From: Chromatiales bacterium
Lineage (GTDB): Bacteria; Pseudomonadota; Gammaproteobacteria; Xanthomonadales; SZUA-36
Reading direction: 5' to 3'
Length of the DNA: 60,454 nucleotides
Assembly (NCBI GenBank): GCA_024640045.1
Contig: JAHEFS010000005.1
Location: 1 to 60,454, forward strand
The position numbers and the translations under genes are program-made. The stretch's first letter is position 1. Every line of letters starts with the position of its first letter. The notes under the pieces are model-generated. The model had not been told where the DNA came from and ran no database searches. It was given only the letters and a program-made list of their open reading frames with translations. Of this stretch, positions 10,245 to 23,296 are shown piece by piece.

Positions 10245-13200
10245 TTAATCCCGGGGTTTTTCCGGCAGAGTATCCAGCAGGTTTTCGAGGCTGGCGCGCG
10301 CGGCTTCGATAGAGAAGTGCGCTTTGACGTTTTCGACTGCGGCTGCTGATACGCGATTCCACAGTGTTTCGTCCTGGTACAGGCGCACGATCTGCTCGGC
10401 GAAGGTCTCGGCCGTTTCGGCCACCAGCACTTCCCGGCCGTCCTCGGCGAACATCCCCTCCACCGCGATGGGCGTGGCCACGACGGGCTGACCATAACTC
10501 ATGCTCATGTTGACCTTGCCCTTCACGCCGGCGCCATAGCGCAGCGGCGCCACGGCCAGGCGGCAACGATCCAGCCAGGGCTCGAGTTCTTCCACGAACC
10601 CATGGAATACGACGCCATTGCCATCCAACGCCCGGATTTCATCCGTGGCCTTGCTGCCGATCAGGTGAAACTGAACGTCCGGCAGACGCTGACGGACCAG
10701 CGGCCAGATGTCGCGCACAAACCAGGTTGCGGCGTCGATATTGGGCGGATGCTGGTAGCCACCCACGAAAAACAGGTCCTTGCGTTCGTTGAATCCCGTC
10801 CGGCAGCCCGGCACCTCGTGAATGTTGGAGAGCACGTGAACTCGAGAACCGGGAGCATCTTTCGCCAGGACCTCGACCTCGACCGGACTGACGACCACGG
10901 TGACGTCGGCGGCGGCCACGATGCCGAGCTCCGAGCGACGAGTCTGTTTTGCCACCTGGCGCAGAGCGGTGCTGTCTTCCAGTTCTGCCAGGCGCTGTTC
11001 TCGCAGGTAGTGCAAATCGACGGTGTCGAAGATAAAGGGTGCTCGCGGGCAGTATCGCTTCAGCAGGGACAGGTAGTTGACGGCAATGTAGTGGCGACTG
11101 ATGAACACGTAGTCGAACTCGGAACCGCGCTCTTCGAAAAAGGCCTTCAACGGATCCAGCCAGGGCAGGTAGAGCACCTCGACGCCATCCCGCTGCAGTT
11201 GCCGGGTGTAACGCCCCGCGTGCATGCGGTTGTCGGCAAAAAACGTCACGCCGTAACCCAGGCCCCGGAAACACTGCATGAGATTGGTCAGGCGGACGCT
11301 GCCCGAATCCTGGTCGGGCTCGGGCGTGGTGGCGTCAATCACCAGCACGCGGCCTTGCAGGTGATGATCCCGCGACTGCCGGACCTGAGCCAGGTTGTCA
11401 GGGTCATTGATCGGTGGTGCCTGTTGGGCCAGTGAATCCGCCCAGCGTTCGAGGAACTTGTCCCGGTTGACCTCCTGGTACCGCTTGGTGCCGCTGGCGG
11501 TGTCCGTACCCGAAGTGATGCCCTCGTGATGGATCACGACCGCGGCCGGCTGGACCAGGACTTTCAGACCGGCCTCGCGAATTCGGAAGGCAAGGTCGGT
11601 ATCCTCGTAGTAGGCGGGTGCGTAATGGCTGTCGAATCCGCCCAGTTCGCTGAAGGTGGCGGTACGCAGCATGATGCAGGCGCCTGAGCAGTAGTCGGTC
11701 TCGCGCAGGTACTGGTACTCCGGGCGGTCCGGGTCGTCATGGCGTCCGTAGTTCCAGCCCGAGCCATCGCTGAAAACCATCCCGCCGCATTCCTGCAAGG
11801 TTCCGTCGGGGTAGACCAGTTTGGCCCCGACCAGTCCGGCATCGGGTACTTCATTGAAGGTTTCCACCAGGCGATCCAGCCAGCCATCGCTCACCTGCGT
11901 GTCGTTGTTGAGCAAGACCAGGAAAGCGCCCCTGGCCTGTTTCGCGCCGCGGTTGCAACTGCCGATGAAGCCCAGGTTCTGTTTGTTGCGCAGGTAGCGC
12001 ACGCCTGCCAAGGCCGTCATTGCGGTCTCGGTTTCGTCGGCGGAAGCATCGTCCACCACGATGACTTCAAAAGAGGTCTCACAACGGGTGGCAGCGATGC
12101 TTTCCAGGCACTGCCTGGTGTAGGCCCACTGATTGTAGGCGGGGATGACGATGCTGATCTGCGGTTCATCGGGGCAGACCAGGCTCAGCGGCCGTTCCGG
12201 CGACGGGGTTGTCAGGGCGGTCGCTATCGCGCCCGGTTCCGCGTCACGCTTCGCTGCGCCGGTCGTTGTCGAACCGCTGTGGTCGGGTCCACGGCGGGCA
12301 GGCTTGTCGCCGCCGGATCGCTCCGGCGCCAGATCCGGCTTCCTGGGTGCCGTTTCCGGAGCAACAGCGCTCTGGGCCGGCGCCTGTAGGCGTTCGATGG
12401 TGCCCCCAACACCCCGGGTGGCCAGGTAGCGAACGCCCTTCGAGGCCAGCAGCGGCCACCGCAAGGGATTGTAGATGCGTGCCTGCCACAGGGTTCGGGC
12501 ACTGCGCTTGAGCACCCTCAGCGGTCGTGTGACGCGCCAGGAGAAGCTGGCCAGGATCAGGTCCTGAAGCTCCTGCAAGCGTCGACGTTCGGCTTCGGTC
12601 GATTCGTGCAGTTGCGCCAGTTCTCGCAATTCGGAGCGGGTGGTCGCCAATTCGGAGCGGTTCTCGGCCAGGGCTTTGCCCAGCGAGCTAATTTCAGCAC
12701 CGAGACTTTCCCGTTCCTCCCGGAGCGTTTTATCGAGTGCCTGGGCCCAGGCCGTGCGTTCCGCCACGGTCTGCTCCAGTTCCGCGGCGTGCTTACGGGC
12801 CTGCTCGGCTGCGGTGTTGGCCGCTTCTGCCCAGCGGGTGCGCTCCGCTACCGTCTGTTCCAGTTCCGCGACATGCTCACGGGCCTCTTCGGCTGCAGTG
12901 TTGGCCGCTTCTGCCCAGCGGGTGCGCTCCGCTACCGTCTGTTCCAGTTCCGCGACATGCTCACGGGCCTCTTCGGCTGCAGTGTTGGCCGCTTCCGCCC
13001 AACGAAGGCGCTCTGCCAGATCCGCCTCCAGCTCAGTGGCCCGTTGCTTGGCTTTTTCGGCGTCCTGGTTGGCACGCTCAGCCCACTCTTGTCGCTCACG
13101 GGCGTTCTGTTTGGCCTGTTCCGCCCACTGCGAACGGCGCCCCAGTTCGCGCTCGATTTCGCGCTGGCGAACCCGGGCCTGCCGAAGCTGCGTCCCCCCC

Positions 13201-15209
13201 TGGGCTACCAGGTAACGGGCTGACTCGGCCTGCGCTTGAGCCAGCGAGTGGTGCTGCCCCGGTGGGCTGGCAGCGCCTAGCTCCGCCGGGCACAGCTGTT
13301 CATATGCGCGCACCATGTCCGCCATGTCGTTCGATGGCAAGCTCAGAATTGCTTCACTGATGGACCGGAGCAGTTCGGGTTTGGAAGCGATCCGGGCCAC
13401 TGTCTCGATCAGTTCCTTGGATGAGGGTTCGATCAGCCAGCCAGTGACTCCATGCTCGATGCGTTCCTCGAAGCTGCCGCGGCGGGTCGCGATCACGGGC
13501 AATCCAAGCCGCTGCAGTTCCGACAGCATGTAGCTGTAAGTTTCCGGGACGATTGAGAGCAATGCTGCCAGGTGCGGACCGATCTCACGCAACAAATCCG
13601 GCAACTCTTCGCGCCGGTACTGCAGGACGACGGAAACACCCTGGAGACCGAAGAAGTCCTCTCCGTGCTTGCCGGTGCCCAGCAGGTAGATATGTGCGTG
13701 TTCGGCCAGTCCGGGCAGTGCGTCCTTTAGCAGGGCCTTACCCTTGCCCGGCTGTATCCTGCCGGGAATGAGCAGGCGCAGTTTTTGATCGGGGCGCGGC
13801 CGGGCAGCGACAGGCTGAGTCCGGAGTAGCGGCGGCAGCCCGTGCGGCACCAGTGCAATATCCACCCCATCCCAACGCGAATCCAGTTGTCGGTAGAGAT
13901 CGATGACCGACTGGCTGGGCGCCACCAACTTGACCGGGTGCCGGGTGATGGCCTCGTAACAGGCGTCCCGGAGGACGTACCATTGGTCTGCATCGCGGTC
14001 ACCAAATTCCATCTTGCCTTGCTGGCTGCGGATGGCAGCAGGCAGATCGATGCCGTCCTTGCCCGCGTAATCATGCGGATGCACGCTCAGAAGGGGCCAA
14101 AGCGGGAAATAATCGTGGAGGACCTGCAGCGTGGGCAGTCCGGTTCGCAAGGCATCCAGGCTATGGCCCACCAACGAGGAAACCAGCACGCGCCCGACGC
14201 CAAAACGCGCAAGGACTTCCTGCAGCGCTTGCTGATATTGCCCGTTTTCGATTTCGATCGAGGCAATCGGCGGCTGCAGCCACCAACTGGCAATCGGGAA
14301 TCGCAGTTCGTTGCCGGCATAGAGCGCCAGTCTCTGTCCGTTACCCCCGCCGGTTTGCGCTTGTTCCGAGCGCAGCTGCAGGTGATCCGAAGCCTCGTCC
14401 GCGTCGATAAAAGCCTGCGTCCACAGGCTGACCCCACCTCCCCAGCTGTGGGTGATGTGCAGCGTGACCGGCTGGCTGTTTGCGCCGGGCACTTTCACGG
14501 CCGGAGCGCCGGCATCCAGCCAACCCTGCAGGTGTTCGGAGAGCGACCCCCACGCCGCCGGCCTCTTTGATTCATGCGGCTCCAGTTTCGTGCTGCTGAA
14601 GACTGCAGATCTTTCATCCGGTACGAAAAGCCATTCCGCCAGTTCGAGGCTGTCAGACACAGAGGCCGTGAAATCAGCAGGTTCCGCTCGGGAGTGGGCG
14701 AACTCCCCGGCTGCGGCTGGTGAAAGCGCCAATAAGTGGTCAGGCCAGGCGCACTGTTTGTGCAGTGCGGGTTCCGCCATGAGACGGACCGCTGTAGAGA
14801 GGTCGCTCCAGTTGGGAGGTTCCGGGCCGGTCAGGCCGGCGAAAGGGTTGCATTCCGGTGCTGCGTTACTCATGACGGTCAGGGCCCGTGGCCCCTCGGG
14901 CGCCGACAGCAGGGCTTGCAGTTCTGCCAGTTGTTCAGCGGTGGGCCGCAATCCGGCACGAATCAGAACGATGGTCTGCCCCGGAGCTTCTGCTTGCAGT
15001 TCGTTCAACAGGGGGACGATTCGTTCGAGGTTGTTTTGTGTCTGCTGCGTACCCGGCAGTGAAGCGTGGCTGAAAACTCGCAGACCCAGGGCGTGAATTC
15101 GTTCCAGCCACGGCCTGTCAATGGCCTGGGTGCCCTTGGCATGGAGATACAGGACGGGACCGTTCGGGCGTCCTGCATTTTTGCGGGTTGTTGTCTTACG
15201 CGCAGGCAT
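10245..15209 (-). CDS. Giant three-catalytic-domain glycosyltransferase with coiled-coil repeat (GT4 - coiled coil - GT2 - GT4)
   Basis: 1654 residues. After an uncharacterised N-terminal region (about 1-230), a GT4-like GT-B domain runs to about 640 (LIPGRIQPGKGK; then a SELQRLGLPVIATRRGSFEE sugar-nucleotide loop). A coiled coil follows (about 665-883) with three 28-residue repeats at about 734-817, ending in the SWRVTRPLR segment often found in polysaccharide glycosyltransferases. A GT2 GT-A domain starts near 1016 (SIVIPAYN) with a VVDDAS motif and NND near 1102. A second GT4-like domain occupies about 1290-1654. It probably builds a surface glycan at the cytoplasmic face. There is no signal peptide. 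No adjacent polysaccharide operon is present; the nearest related gene is the tandem transferase at 20840. Substrates are unknown. Confidence 0.85.
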   Translation of the reverse strand: MPARKTTTRKNAGRPNGPVLYLHAKGTQAIDRPWLERIHALGLRVFSHASLPGTQQTQNNLERIVPLLNELQAEAPGQTIVLIRAGLRPTAEQLAELQALLSAPEGPRALTVMSNAAPECNPFAGLTGPEPPNWSDLSTAVRLMAEPALHKQCAWPDHLLALSPAAAGEFAHSRAEPADFTASVSDSLELAEWLFVPDERSAVFSSTKLEPHESKRPAAWGSLSEHLQGWLDAGAPAVKVPGANSQPVTLHITHSWGGGVSLWTQAFIDADEASDHLQLRSEQAQTGGGNGQRLALYAGNELRFPIASWWLQPPIASIEIENGQYQQALQEVLARFGVGRVLVSSLVGHSLDALRTGLPTLQVLHDYFPLWPLLSVHPHDYAGKDGIDLPAAIRSQQGKMEFGDRDADQWYVLRDACYEAITRHPVKLVAPSQSVIDLYRQLDSRWDGVDIALVPHGLPPLLRTQPVAARPRPDQKLRLLIPGRIQPGKGKALLKDALPGLAEHAHIYLLGTGKHGEDFFGLQGVSVVLQYRREELPDLLREIGPHLAALLSIVPETYSYMLSELQRLGLPVIATRRGSFEERIEHGVTGWLIEPSSKELIETVARIASKPELLRSISEAILSLPSNDMADMVRAYEQLCPAELGAASPPGQHHSLAQAQAESARYLVAQGGTQLRQARVRQREIERELGRRSQWAEQAKQNARERQEWAERANQDAEKAKQRATELEADLAERLRWAEAANTAAEEAREHVAELEQTVAERTRWAEAANTAAEEAREHVAELEQTVAERTRWAEAANTAAEQARKHAAELEQTVAERTAWAQALDKTLREERESLGAEISSLGKALAENRSELATTRSELRELAQLHESTEAERRRLQELQDLILASFSWRVTRPLRVLKRSARTLWQARIYNPLRWPLLASKGVRYLATRGVGGTIERLQAPAQSAVAPETAPRKPDLAPERSGGDKPARRGPDHSGSTTTGAAKRDAEPGAIATALTTPSPERPLSLVCPDEPQISIVIPAYNQWAYTRQCLESIAATRCETSFEVIVVDDASADETETAMTALAGVRYLRNKQNLGFIGSCNRGAKQARGAFLVLLNNDTQVSDGWLDRLVETFNEVPDAGLVGAKLVYPDGTLQECGGMVFSDGSGWNYGRHDDPDRPEYQYLRETDYCSGACIMLRTATFSELGGFDSHYAPAYYEDTDLAFRIREAGLKVLVQPAAVVIHHEGITSGTDTASGTKRYQEVNRDKFLERWADSLAQQAPPINDPDNLAQVRQSRDHHLQGRVLVIDATTPEPDQDSGSVRLTNLMQCFRGLGYGVTFFADNRMHAGRYTRQLQRDGVEVLYLPWLDPLKAFFEERGSEFDYVFISRHYIAVNYLSLLKRYCPRAPFIFDTVDLHYLREQRLAELEDSTALRQVAKQTRRSELGIVAAADVTVVVSPVEVEVLAKDAPGSRVHVLSNIHEVPGCRTGFNERKDLFFVGGYQHPPNIDAATWFVRDIWPLVRQRLPDVQFHLIGSKATDEIRALDGNGVVFHGFVEELEPWLDRCRLAVAPLRYGAGVKGKVNMSMSYGQPVVATPIAVEGMFAEDGREVLVAETAETFAEQIVRLYQDETLWNRVSAAAVENVKAHFSIEAARASLENLLDTLPEKPRD
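12757..13008 (-). repeat. Three tandem 84-bp units inside the glycosyltransferase coiled coil
   Basis: Units 12757-12840, 12841-12924 and 12925-13008. The second and third are nearly identical base for base; differences are confined to the last third of the unit. The first has scattered changes. Each encodes 28 residues, a multiple of seven, so gain or loss of a unit keeps both the reading frame and the heptad register. Confidence 0.95.
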
Positions 15210-15404
15210 TAGAATGTCGGCTGGCGGTCCTTTTGAAGCTTAAGGTTGAATGCACACCGGGAACTTCGCAGGTCCGCGGAATGATCTGCTGGCGATTCGT
15301 ATCCGGCGTGTTCGGTCGCCGGGGCAGCCAGCCGGTCATTATCGTAAATCCATCGCGTGATGTCACGGCATTGCCCCGTCGTATCACTGCCAACCGGGTA
15401 TTGA

Positions 15405-20839: not shown

Positions 20840-23296
20840 CTAGCCCTGCGATTTACCCTCGAGCGTATCGAAAATCCGCACATACTCTGATGCGATGGAC
20901 TTCCAGTCCATCGTGGCCGCCATTGCTCGTGCCGCAACGGCGAGCGATTGAGCACGGTCGGGTTCGCGCAGCAACTGCCCGATCGCTGCGGCCATCGCGT
21001 CCCAGTCGTCGATGACCAGTGCATGCTTGCCGTTGATCACGGGAATGCCCTCGATGCCCTTGGAGGTGCTGACCACGGCCGTGCCGGCTGCAAAGCAGTC
21101 GATGATTTTCATCCGCGTGCCCCCACCATCGAGCAATGGGACCACCGCCAGGTCTGCCGCTTTGATCCAGGGGCCGACCTTGTCTACGCTGCCGGTCAGG
21201 TGAATGTGCGGGTGCGGGCTTTTCTCCGGTGGTTCTCGGCCCACGGCAAGCACATGGCAGGAAAGACCCGCTTGTTCCAGGCGTGGCAACAGTTCTTGTG
21301 CGTAGACCTCCAGTGCTCGCAGGTTGGGCGGATAGGAAAACGTACCGTGGTAGACCAGCAGCGGCGCCTGTTCGGGGATGCCGAATCGCTCGCGCAGCCC
21401 CGCTTCGGCTGGAAGGTCGAACTGGTCCAGGTCGACACCGTGCGGCACCGTGTACAGGCGGTCCAGGTCGACGCCGTCCTCGGCCAGCTTTTGCCGATCG
21501 TTGTCTGAGACACAGATGACGGCGTCGCAATGGTTGCACAGGTCAATCTCGATCGCTTTGTACCGCCGGTATTGCTCCTCGGTCAATTCCGCGACCTGGG
21601 TGCGGATGCGCTCGTACTCGACATTGTGTTCGACCAGTGCCAGGCGGGTATCCAGGACCTCACTGGCATGAATACAGGGACGCACATAGGCGGGAAACTC
21701 GGCTTGCAGAACGCGGGCGCCTACCCGTCGCGCCGCGTACAGCGTACGCCAGAAATAGCTGCCGTCCGTCAGCGGCAGATAAAGGAAAGCATTGTTGCCG
21801 GGAATATCCTTGCTGTAGTGCAATGCCTTGCTGACGAAACCAGGCAGGGATATGGCCCGGACCCACAATGGCACGCGCTTGCGCGTGACTTCGCCGTTGT
21901 TGACCCGCCACCAGTATCTTCGGTCATCGGTCACCAGCGCCACGTCGCGGCCGACGCGGGAAAGCCCCCTGGCCGTTTCCACGATCTTGACCGCGGCACC
22001 ATGGTCAGCCGGGAACAGGTCGCTGCGGGTGACGATCACCACGCCCCTGTCCTGATGCCCGCCGAATACCCTGCGCTGCGCTTTCAAGACCCGCGAGCGT
22101 GCACCCGGGAAGCGCGCACCCAACGAGCGCTTTCCGAGTTGATAAATCGCCCCCGCCCGCCGCTTCAACGCGGGCGCTCCGAGTTCAGGGGGTGCCGGGA
22201 TTTCGCGCGGGAGGCGCGCAGCTTTGCGCGGTGACTTCAGCCATTCCAGAAGGGGAGCACAGGTTTCTGCCGGTGAAAACAACGACTCAGCCAGCCTGCA
22301 CGCGTTCGAGGACTTGGCACGCCACGCTGATGGATCGCTCATGATCGCGCGCAGCAATTCCGGCAAGTCGTCGGCATTGTCGATGAGCCAGCCCGCGTCA
22401 TAACGTTCGATCTGGCGGGCCAGCGACAGGTAGGTGTTGCAGATCACAGGTAGGCCATGACGCAGGAATTCGATGGAGCGAAAAGACTGGCTGAAGCGGC
22501 GCTCCACGTTGTCGTCCGCCAGTTCCAGCCCGATGTGGCCGTGTTCGAGCAGCCACTCGGAGAATTGCTCATACGGCAGCAACGAGCGGACTTTGCGCTT
22601 GCCGTGGTCGGAGGCCTCGTGCCTGCCATCCAGGGCGTAGCCGCCCCCAAACAAAATCAGCTCCAATTTGTCTGAGCCGTGTTCCGGCATGCTTTCGATG
22701 GCTTTCCAGTAGGGTTCGGTATTCCGCCACGGCCAATTGACGCCACCGGATACCAGTTTCCAGCCATCTGCCTTCGGATTGGATCGCGGCTTGTCGATGG
22801 TCTCGGCGGCCAGCGGAACCACGACTGCGCCCGTTTCCCGTCCGAGATCGAGTCCGGCTTCGAGCAGGGGTAGCAGCATGAGGGCATGTTGTTTTTCGCT
22901 GCCGGTCAGCAGCAGGTCCACCTTGGACAGGTCAACCTGCAATCGTCGCAGGTCCTGTCTCAGTTGATGTGGGTCTTCGAACAGTTGCTCCAGTGGCCTC
23001 GGCGCCAGGAAGTCCAGGATCAGCGGCACATCCGATTCGAAGGGCATCAGGTCCAGCAATTCCCAGTAGCCCACCAGGTGTACGTCGGCGTTCTGGCGCA
23101 TCAACAGCCCGCGCAGATCGTCGCGGCCCGTAAATGTCGTCTCCGAGTCTGAGCGCGGATTTTCCTGCCAAATATGCGCCACCTCGTGCCCGGCCTGTTC
23201 CAGGCAGCGGGTCAGTTGACGGGTTCGGATTGAATTGCCAGTGACCACTCTGTCGTGAGACAGCGGTGGTTCCTGGGCAATCAGCAGTACCTTCAT
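20840..23296 (-). CDS. Tandem glycosyltransferase (two GT4-like domains)
   Basis: 818 residues with two GT-B modules. The first (about 1-370) begins MKVLLIAQEPPLS and includes a SIEFLRHGLPVICNT donor loop. After a basic linker (about 370-410), the second (about 415-818) has VPHGVDLDQF near 612, a VYHGTFSYPPN segment and GTRMKIIDCFAAGTAV near 732, where the GT4 glutamate loop normally lies. The protein is cytosolic, perhaps peripheral to the membrane. It starts 21 bp after the mgtE stop on the same strand and so may be transcribed with it, which is an unusual neighbour. Donor and acceptor sugars are unknown. It may cooperate with the giant transferase at 10245-15209; that is inference. Confidence 0.85.
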   Translation of the reverse strand: MKVLLIAQEPPLSHDRVVTGNSIRTRQLTRCLEQAGHEVAHIWQENPRSDSETTFTGRDDLRGLLMRQNADVHLVGYWELLDLMPFESDVPLILDFLAPRPLEQLFEDPHQLRQDLRRLQVDLSKVDLLLTGSEKQHALMLLPLLEAGLDLGRETGAVVVPLAAETIDKPRSNPKADGWKLVSGGVNWPWRNTEPYWKAIESMPEHGSDKLELILFGGGYALDGRHEASDHGKRKVRSLLPYEQFSEWLLEHGHIGLELADDNVERRFSQSFRSIEFLRHGLPVICNTYLSLARQIERYDAGWLIDNADDLPELLRAIMSDPSAWRAKSSNACRLAESLFSPAETCAPLLEWLKSPRKAARLPREIPAPPELGAPALKRRAGAIYQLGKRSLGARFPGARSRVLKAQRRVFGGHQDRGVVIVTRSDLFPADHGAAVKIVETARGLSRVGRDVALVTDDRRYWWRVNNGEVTRKRVPLWVRAISLPGFVSKALHYSKDIPGNNAFLYLPLTDGSYFWRTLYAARRVGARVLQAEFPAYVRPCIHASEVLDTRLALVEHNVEYERIRTQVAELTEEQYRRYKAIEIDLCNHCDAVICVSDNDRQKLAEDGVDLDRLYTVPHGVDLDQFDLPAEAGLRERFGIPEQAPLLVYHGTFSYPPNLRALEVYAQELLPRLEQAGLSCHVLAVGREPPEKSPHPHIHLTGSVDKVGPWIKAADLAVVPLLDGGGTRMKIIDCFAAGTAVVSTSKGIEGIPVINGKHALVIDDWDAMAAAIGQLLREPDRAQSLAVAARAMAATMDWKSIASEYVRIFDTLEGKSQG

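Follow-up and report, generated by a model that had tools for sequence, protein, structure and literature searches.

A gene of 1654 codons, devoid of internal stops and read on the minus strand of the window (the whole stretch analysed, 60,454 nucleotides, which is one entire 60-kb contig of a 3.2 Mb genome), encodes a giant glycosyltransferase (GT) in which sugar-transferring modules are joined by a coiled coil. A role in the making of envelope glycans is likely. Since GpsX, a short relative of the protein, is needed for O-antigen in Xanthomonas, the window enzyme most likely helps to build surface sugar chains. We hold it reasonably probable that it is a membrane-docked, multi-module GT which assembles the O-polysaccharide that Wzm/Wzt exports onto LPS, or a conserved portion of this polymer; polymerase activity, the identity of the sugars, and the parts of the head as terminator and of the coiled coil as ruler are what we infer beyond this. 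A lone order-wide gene would thus be tied to an ABC-exported surface polysaccharide, and gpsX, a poorly understood virulence-related gene, would be given an origin in evolution, together with a mechanism open to test. The features of the window are as follows.

10245..15209, minus strand: giant GT gene, whole (1654 aa)
14490..15209, minus strand: residues 1-240, putative degenerate GT2-like (GT-A) head without DXD or ED residues (moderate evidence)
13275..14480, minus strand: residues 244-645, canonical GT4 (GT-B fold) with HDY, GR-x4-KG and EX7E (E556, E564); Pfam PF00534
12552..13244, minus strand: residues 656-886, coiled coil with period-3.5 hydrophobicity
12754..13001, minus strand: 84-bp tandem repeat, 3 copies, 93% match, each copy 28 residues or 4 heptads
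12375..12551, minus strand: residues 887-945, SFSWRVTRPLR amphipathic, strongly basic helices, probable membrane-docking element
11400..12182, minus strand: residues 1010-1270, canonical GT2 with D1053-D1054, NND 1101-1103 and E1202-D1203; Pfam PF00535
10260..11363, minus strand: residues 1283-1650, GT4-fold domain without EX7E; Pfam PF13692; invariant R1557, K1563, K1565, GG(1483-4), H1487 and N1490
15210..15404, no strand: divergent intergenic region between the giant GT gene and mrcB, with a promoter-like site on the minus strand (15366-15338) found by consensus scan only
20840..23296, minus strand: second large GT, 818 aa, with GT-B domains, near the locus and retained by family members

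Domain architecture of the giant GT

On one side the gene meets relA tail to tail, with 1 bp between the two stop codons; on the other it is transcribed away from mrcB (PBP1B), and 195 bp separate the starts. An earlier note had read in this single frame a GT4 domain, a coiled coil ending in SWRVTRPLR, a GT2 domain and a second domain of GT4 fold, and Pfam, AlphaFold and sequence periodicity bear out this order. In the fold prediction recommended by the note both halves are well modelled (AlphaFold pLDDT 91 for the N-terminal and 88 for the C-terminal half). The gene had been described as sitting alone between relA and mrcB: the neighbours are indeed those, but the 818-aa GT lies nearby. The second GT sits past dinG, and its N-terminal 400 residues are unannotated; family members retain it there, and at another locus (L124) its homologue directly adjoins that of the giant GT, which suggests that the two GTs may form a working pair. 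No match to the giant GT was found in a plasmid collection.

Residues 244-645 are, as judged from the sequence, a complete canonical GT4 of the retaining type, in which the GT-B fold, the GR...K signature and EX7E are all found. Pfam Glycos_transf_1 matches residues 471-620; G483, K489, G490, E556 and E564 are invariant in 48 aligned sequences, and the other motif columns are invariant or nearly so. A fold search made with the model, which covered residues 245-644, returned BshA and HepE among the best folds (Z 27-29). Residues 1010-1270 are in turn predicted to be a complete GT2 enzyme, endowed with the GT-A fold, the DD pair, the DXD-type NND and the catalytic ED. The Pfam GT2 match spans 1019-1153 (E 2.8e-29), and the D, N and E residues are invariant or nearly so in 55 sequences.

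The C-terminal domain, matched by Pfam Glyco_trans_1_4 at residues 1477-1613, has a confirmed GT-B fold (sucrose-phosphate synthase and TarM among the best folds, Z 33). The closest NCBIfam model is TIGR03087 (stp1, PEP-CTERM/XrtA glycosyltransferase), found at E 6e-40 but far below its cut-off (138 vs 317 bits). By profile alignment to TarM, both Glu residues of EX7E and the phosphate-binding R/K pair are absent from the domain, and GAGVKGKVNMSM and GGYQHPPN are found in their place. The claim that all three domains show recognisable motifs holds for the GT4 at 244-645 and for the GT2, and fails here; a domain lacking the GT catalytic residues had been named as a finding that would refute the three-domain reading, and of the three the GT4-fold domain alone is in this state. 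GGxxHxPNxD and GAGVKGKVNMSMS are invariant or nearly invariant where the GT4 catalytic residues are expected; the domain is one of the best conserved stretches of the protein, and is hence strongly constrained whether or not it is active. The loss of both Glu residues and of the R/K pair might mean that the domain is catalytically dead and binds a sugar nucleotide or an acceptor, so that the chain has two active sites only. We consider this doubtful: the KGK, GGxxHxPN and DxGS columns are invariant in a highly conserved domain, and the second Glu is kept in the distant relatives L102, L119 and L149 (KGKxxEAM), so that different residues may serve in this subfamily.

The N-terminal 230 residues were said to match nothing. 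They have in fact no match in Pfam, even at E 5, and the idea of a known Pfam domain was rejected. Yet, when profiles are compared, the head region is matched to the GT2 of the same protein with 63% probability, whereas reversed-profile controls gave 0.2 to 2%. The match covers the metal-binding strand, where LNNDT of the GT2 reads IRAGL in the head; the DXD and ED residues of GT2 are absent, and mean column identity in the region is 20%. The AlphaFold model of the N-terminal half displays alternating strands and helices in the head. A homologue from another order (L149) has the order GT2-GT4-coiled coil-SWRITRPLR-GT2-GT4, and its first GT2, intact (LNSDT, GEENDF), occupies the same position as the head, which strengthens the view of the latter as a decayed GT2. 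With moderate confidence, the head of the window protein may thus be regarded as a decayed copy of a GT2 domain like that of L149.

That a coiled coil joins the catalytic modules is confirmed by hydrophobicity, which over residues 660-884 scores 185 at period 3.5, against a maximum of 76 in 500 shuffles. Trp residues recur every 28 residues along it, and the three near-identical 84-bp repeats preserve the heptad register. The window protein has a spacer (coiled coil plus flanks) of 244 aa; that of the closest relative, L038, has 142, and lengths in homologues run from 100 to 339. As the spacer of L038 is about 100 residues shorter, the repeat array may be recent. The coiled coil ends at SFSWRVTRPLR, and S-x-S-W-x-x-T-x-P is found there in most of 49 other aligned sequences. 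The helices that follow the motif carry 12 K/R and 1 D/E in 60 residues, with a hydrophobic moment of 0.66, and probably dock the protein to the membrane, by analogy with WbdD (PMC11231755). A literature search for the SWRxTxPLR motif returned no paper.

Conservation of the locus and short forms

Matches were found in all the 41 genomes searched as relatives, with open frames mostly of about 1450-1720 residues, and a scan of GTDB genomes yielded 68 loci. Forty-nine homologues longer than 1400 residues align end to end with the window protein. Because these come from other assemblies and share the same domain order, an assembly join of two genes, the other finding named as fatal to the three-domain reading, is excluded, and the frame is real and ancient. 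The order dinG-mrcB-GT-relA is retained across much of Lysobacterales (Xanthomonadales), gene order and strands being constant for dinG, mrcB, GT and, at many loci, relA. In the comparison of neighbourhoods proposed in the earlier note, both the mrcB/relA context and the domain order recur in relatives. mrcB is close by in 46 of 61 long-form loci and 12 of 23 short-form loci, and several of the loci without it end at a contig edge or fall outside the order. The search of the order, in which the C-terminal half was the query, covered 200 genomes and detected this half in 181; it is present in 9 of 143 genomes drawn from the class, some of the 9 belonging to the order. A protein of 256 aa, probably secreted and with a weak DUF4412 match, lies between mrcB and the GT gene at several Marinicella loci (e.g. 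L076:6472-7242); its cluster, c6, numbers 13 loci in all.

In genomes here called Xanthomonas-like, a label resting on family and fit to GpsX (L114, L147), the gene at the mrcB/relA locus encodes only the half made of GT2 and GT4-fold domains (48% identical). Genes are ordered dinG-mrcB-GT-relA, with one reading frame before relA. The mrcB-GT-relA locus is found in L114, L121, L147 and others, and the closest C-terminal half resides there, as expected of the GpsX group. A search for the N-terminal GT4 in 20 short-form genomes gave generic matches only (best E 4e-7). A quick tree computed from 96 C-terminal halves puts the order's short forms within the long-form clade at two or more distinct points, which argues that the N-terminal half has been lost more than once; the long form is probably ancestral in the order. 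As the GT4 and the coiled coil were lost while the GT2 and GT4-fold domains stayed, the halves do not make one obligatory three-step series. Of the proposal that one chain performs three successive transfers, what survives is the multi-GT chain with its coiled coil; the C-terminal domain without standard residues and the repeated loss of the N-terminal half speak against the rest.

The short form resembles GpsX (XAC3110) of X. citri in length (675-700 aa), in the order GT2 then GT-B, and in having opposite-strand neighbours on both sides; between the DTD motif and the C-terminus there are 441 residues in the short form and 442 in GpsX. In contrast to the 1654 residues of the window protein, the 675-700 aa of GpsX include no decayed GT2 head, GT4 or coiled coil. 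By this analogy the window protein would be a long-form GpsX, the match to GpsX being one of description and position and not of the XAC3110 sequence. A literature search did not return the names of the genes flanking XAC3110. The gpsX mutant of X. citri loses two O-antigen LPS bands and has EPS lowered by 30-50%, the gene restores both, and flagella are normal in the mutant (PMC3364877). In Xanthomonas O-antigen is exported by Wzm/Wzt (PMC3826837). The remark that the gene lies outside a polysaccharide locus is literally true, but is weakened by the need of the short orthologue for O-antigen (PMC3364877) and by relatives that adjoin wzm/wzt.

Exchanged heads and linkage to wzm-wzt

The C-terminal core is found in association with different heads. 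A methyltransferase head precedes the same core in L119, L151, L152 and L155, and likewise in L156, which lacks the SW motif. In L161:4999-7173 a PIG-L deacetylase and a GT2 are followed by SWRLTSPLR and the same core. L125:8393-12016 carries a sulfotransferase-like head (best matches sulfotransferases, E 0.004) and a coiled coil made of KETEAKHASKL tandem repeats on the same GT2 and GT4-fold core. In L149:3411-8117 intact GT2, GT4, coiled coil, GT2 and GT4-fold domain make up a four-GT chain, encoded directly behind wzm and wzt. A wzt homologue is close to L119, L149, L151, L152 and L155, and wzm is close to L149 as well. In L118, L135 and L139 the open frames extend upstream, but these extensions appear to be non-coding and were excluded from the heads. 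A kinase head in L102 was suspected from motifs only; no match was found, and the assignment was rejected.

The genome of the window has a wzm-wzt locus of its own, on another contig.

L132:1402-6056: wzm, wzt with Wzt_C domain, GT2, methyltransferase, GT2

The L132 methyltransferase shares 48% identity with the head fused to the core in L119, and the first GT2 shares 35% with the fused GT2 of L149. Domains fused in one genome and separate in another are the usual sign of a shared pathway. The locus is compact, lies near glyA and has no obvious polymerase; the giant GT could supply it. Among genomes of the family of the window, 28 have both the GT and a close Wzm, 4 the GT only, 3 neither, and none Wzm only (Fisher p 0.005, kinship ignored); some of the 4 genomes with the GT and without close Wzm are incomplete. 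Two genomes of the family about 99-100% complete (G243, G312) have neither a strong GT match nor a close Wzm, though both occur in their genus mates; a joint loss of GT and Wzm is possible.

Proposed mechanism and rival explanations

Among the closest known parallels are two proteins of Klebsiella pneumoniae, O12 WbbB and O7 ORF6, in which one chain has a terminator at the N-terminus, a coiled coil as ruler and two GT modules at the C-terminus (PMC11231755). WbbB (GT99, GT102, GT103; PMC11231755) is like the giant GT in having three GT modules, arranged as an N-terminal head, a coiled coil and two C-terminal modules. The giant GT shares this layout but, judged by Pfam alone, its modules match models of GT4 and GT2 kind (GT4, GT2, GT4-fold) instead of GT99, GT102 and GT103; it carries moreover an extra decayed head, is order-wide, and lies far from wzm-wzt. 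ORF6-O7 features a methyltransferase-kinase, a coiled coil and two GT2 (PMC11231755), again in the same layout, and its methyltransferase head is paralleled by L119, L151, L152 and L155; in the giant GT, the second C-terminal module is GT-B, and the head a GT4. In the WbdD/WbdA pair of E. coli O9a (PMC11231755) a coiled coil is followed by an amphipathic membrane helix, as in the giant GT, but terminator and polymerase are separate proteins.

On the strength of the layout shared with WbbB and ORF6, we propose that the core builds the chain, and that the GT4 head completes or modifies this chain, the coiled coil determining the distance at which it does so. The protein would be cytoplasmic, and the C-terminal GT2 and GT4-fold domains, held at the membrane by the basic SWRVTRPLR helices, would be the chain-building core. 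The coiled coil would hold the head away from the membrane; the GT4 head, by analogy with WbbB and ORF6-O7, would most likely add a sugar that ends or modifies the chain, and the chain length at which this comes within reach would be dictated by the spacer. A fuller scenario, which we offer tentatively, sees polymerase, ruler and GT4 terminator in one order-wide protein whose core has been head-swapped: the fused GT2 head would have decayed after its job passed to a stand-alone enzyme of the wzm-wzt locus, and Xanthomonas would later have shed the N-terminal half, giving rise to GpsX.

Several facts weigh against the O-polysaccharide reading. A single fixed locus across the order is unusual for an O-antigen polymerase, because O-antigen genes normally vary, and the product may be instead a conserved adapter or core extension. 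In contrast to WbbB, the gene is unlinked to wzm/wzt in the genome of the window; the C-terminal GT4-fold domain lacks the standard catalytic residues, and in the 4 family genomes mentioned above the GT occurs without close Wzm. In addition, the methyltransferase of the wzm-wzt locus, rather than the GT4 head, could be the terminator.

The last point bears on a possible alternative, to which we give less than even credit, namely that the GT4 head and the coiled coil serve to add a side branch or a second polymer, or to bring chains together as an oligomer, and have no influence on chain length. A canonical retaining GT4 need not be a terminator, and the wzm-wzt locus already holds a methyltransferase able to terminate; yet in relatives the position of the head is taken by a methyltransferase and other end-modifying heads, as in ORF6-O7. 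The vertical, order-wide conservation at one locus would suit a conserved structure better than the variable O-antigen, and both LPS and EPS are affected by gpsX. From this it might be argued that the product is a short, fixed LPS segment shared across the order, either an adapter or a core-extension oligosaccharide, each GT domain adding one sugar and the coiled coil being a scaffold. We find this rather unlikely, since head swapping, linkage to wzm-wzt and spacers of varying length resemble polymerase-terminator systems, and the N-terminal GT4 has been lost in several lineages. In some bacteria flagellin is glycosylated by large GT4/GT2 proteins. Glycosylation of protein (flagellin, pilin or S-layer) is here highly improbable, and a flagellin glycosyltransferase is rejected for the family of the window, flagellin being found in 0 of 25 of its genomes; the gpsX mutant moreover lacks O-antigen bands and not flagella (PMC3364877).

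If head, spacer and core work as proposed, machines of the WbbB type would extend to different enzyme families, and natural spacers of 100-339 residues, together with exchangeable heads, would allow direct tests of how polysaccharide length is set.
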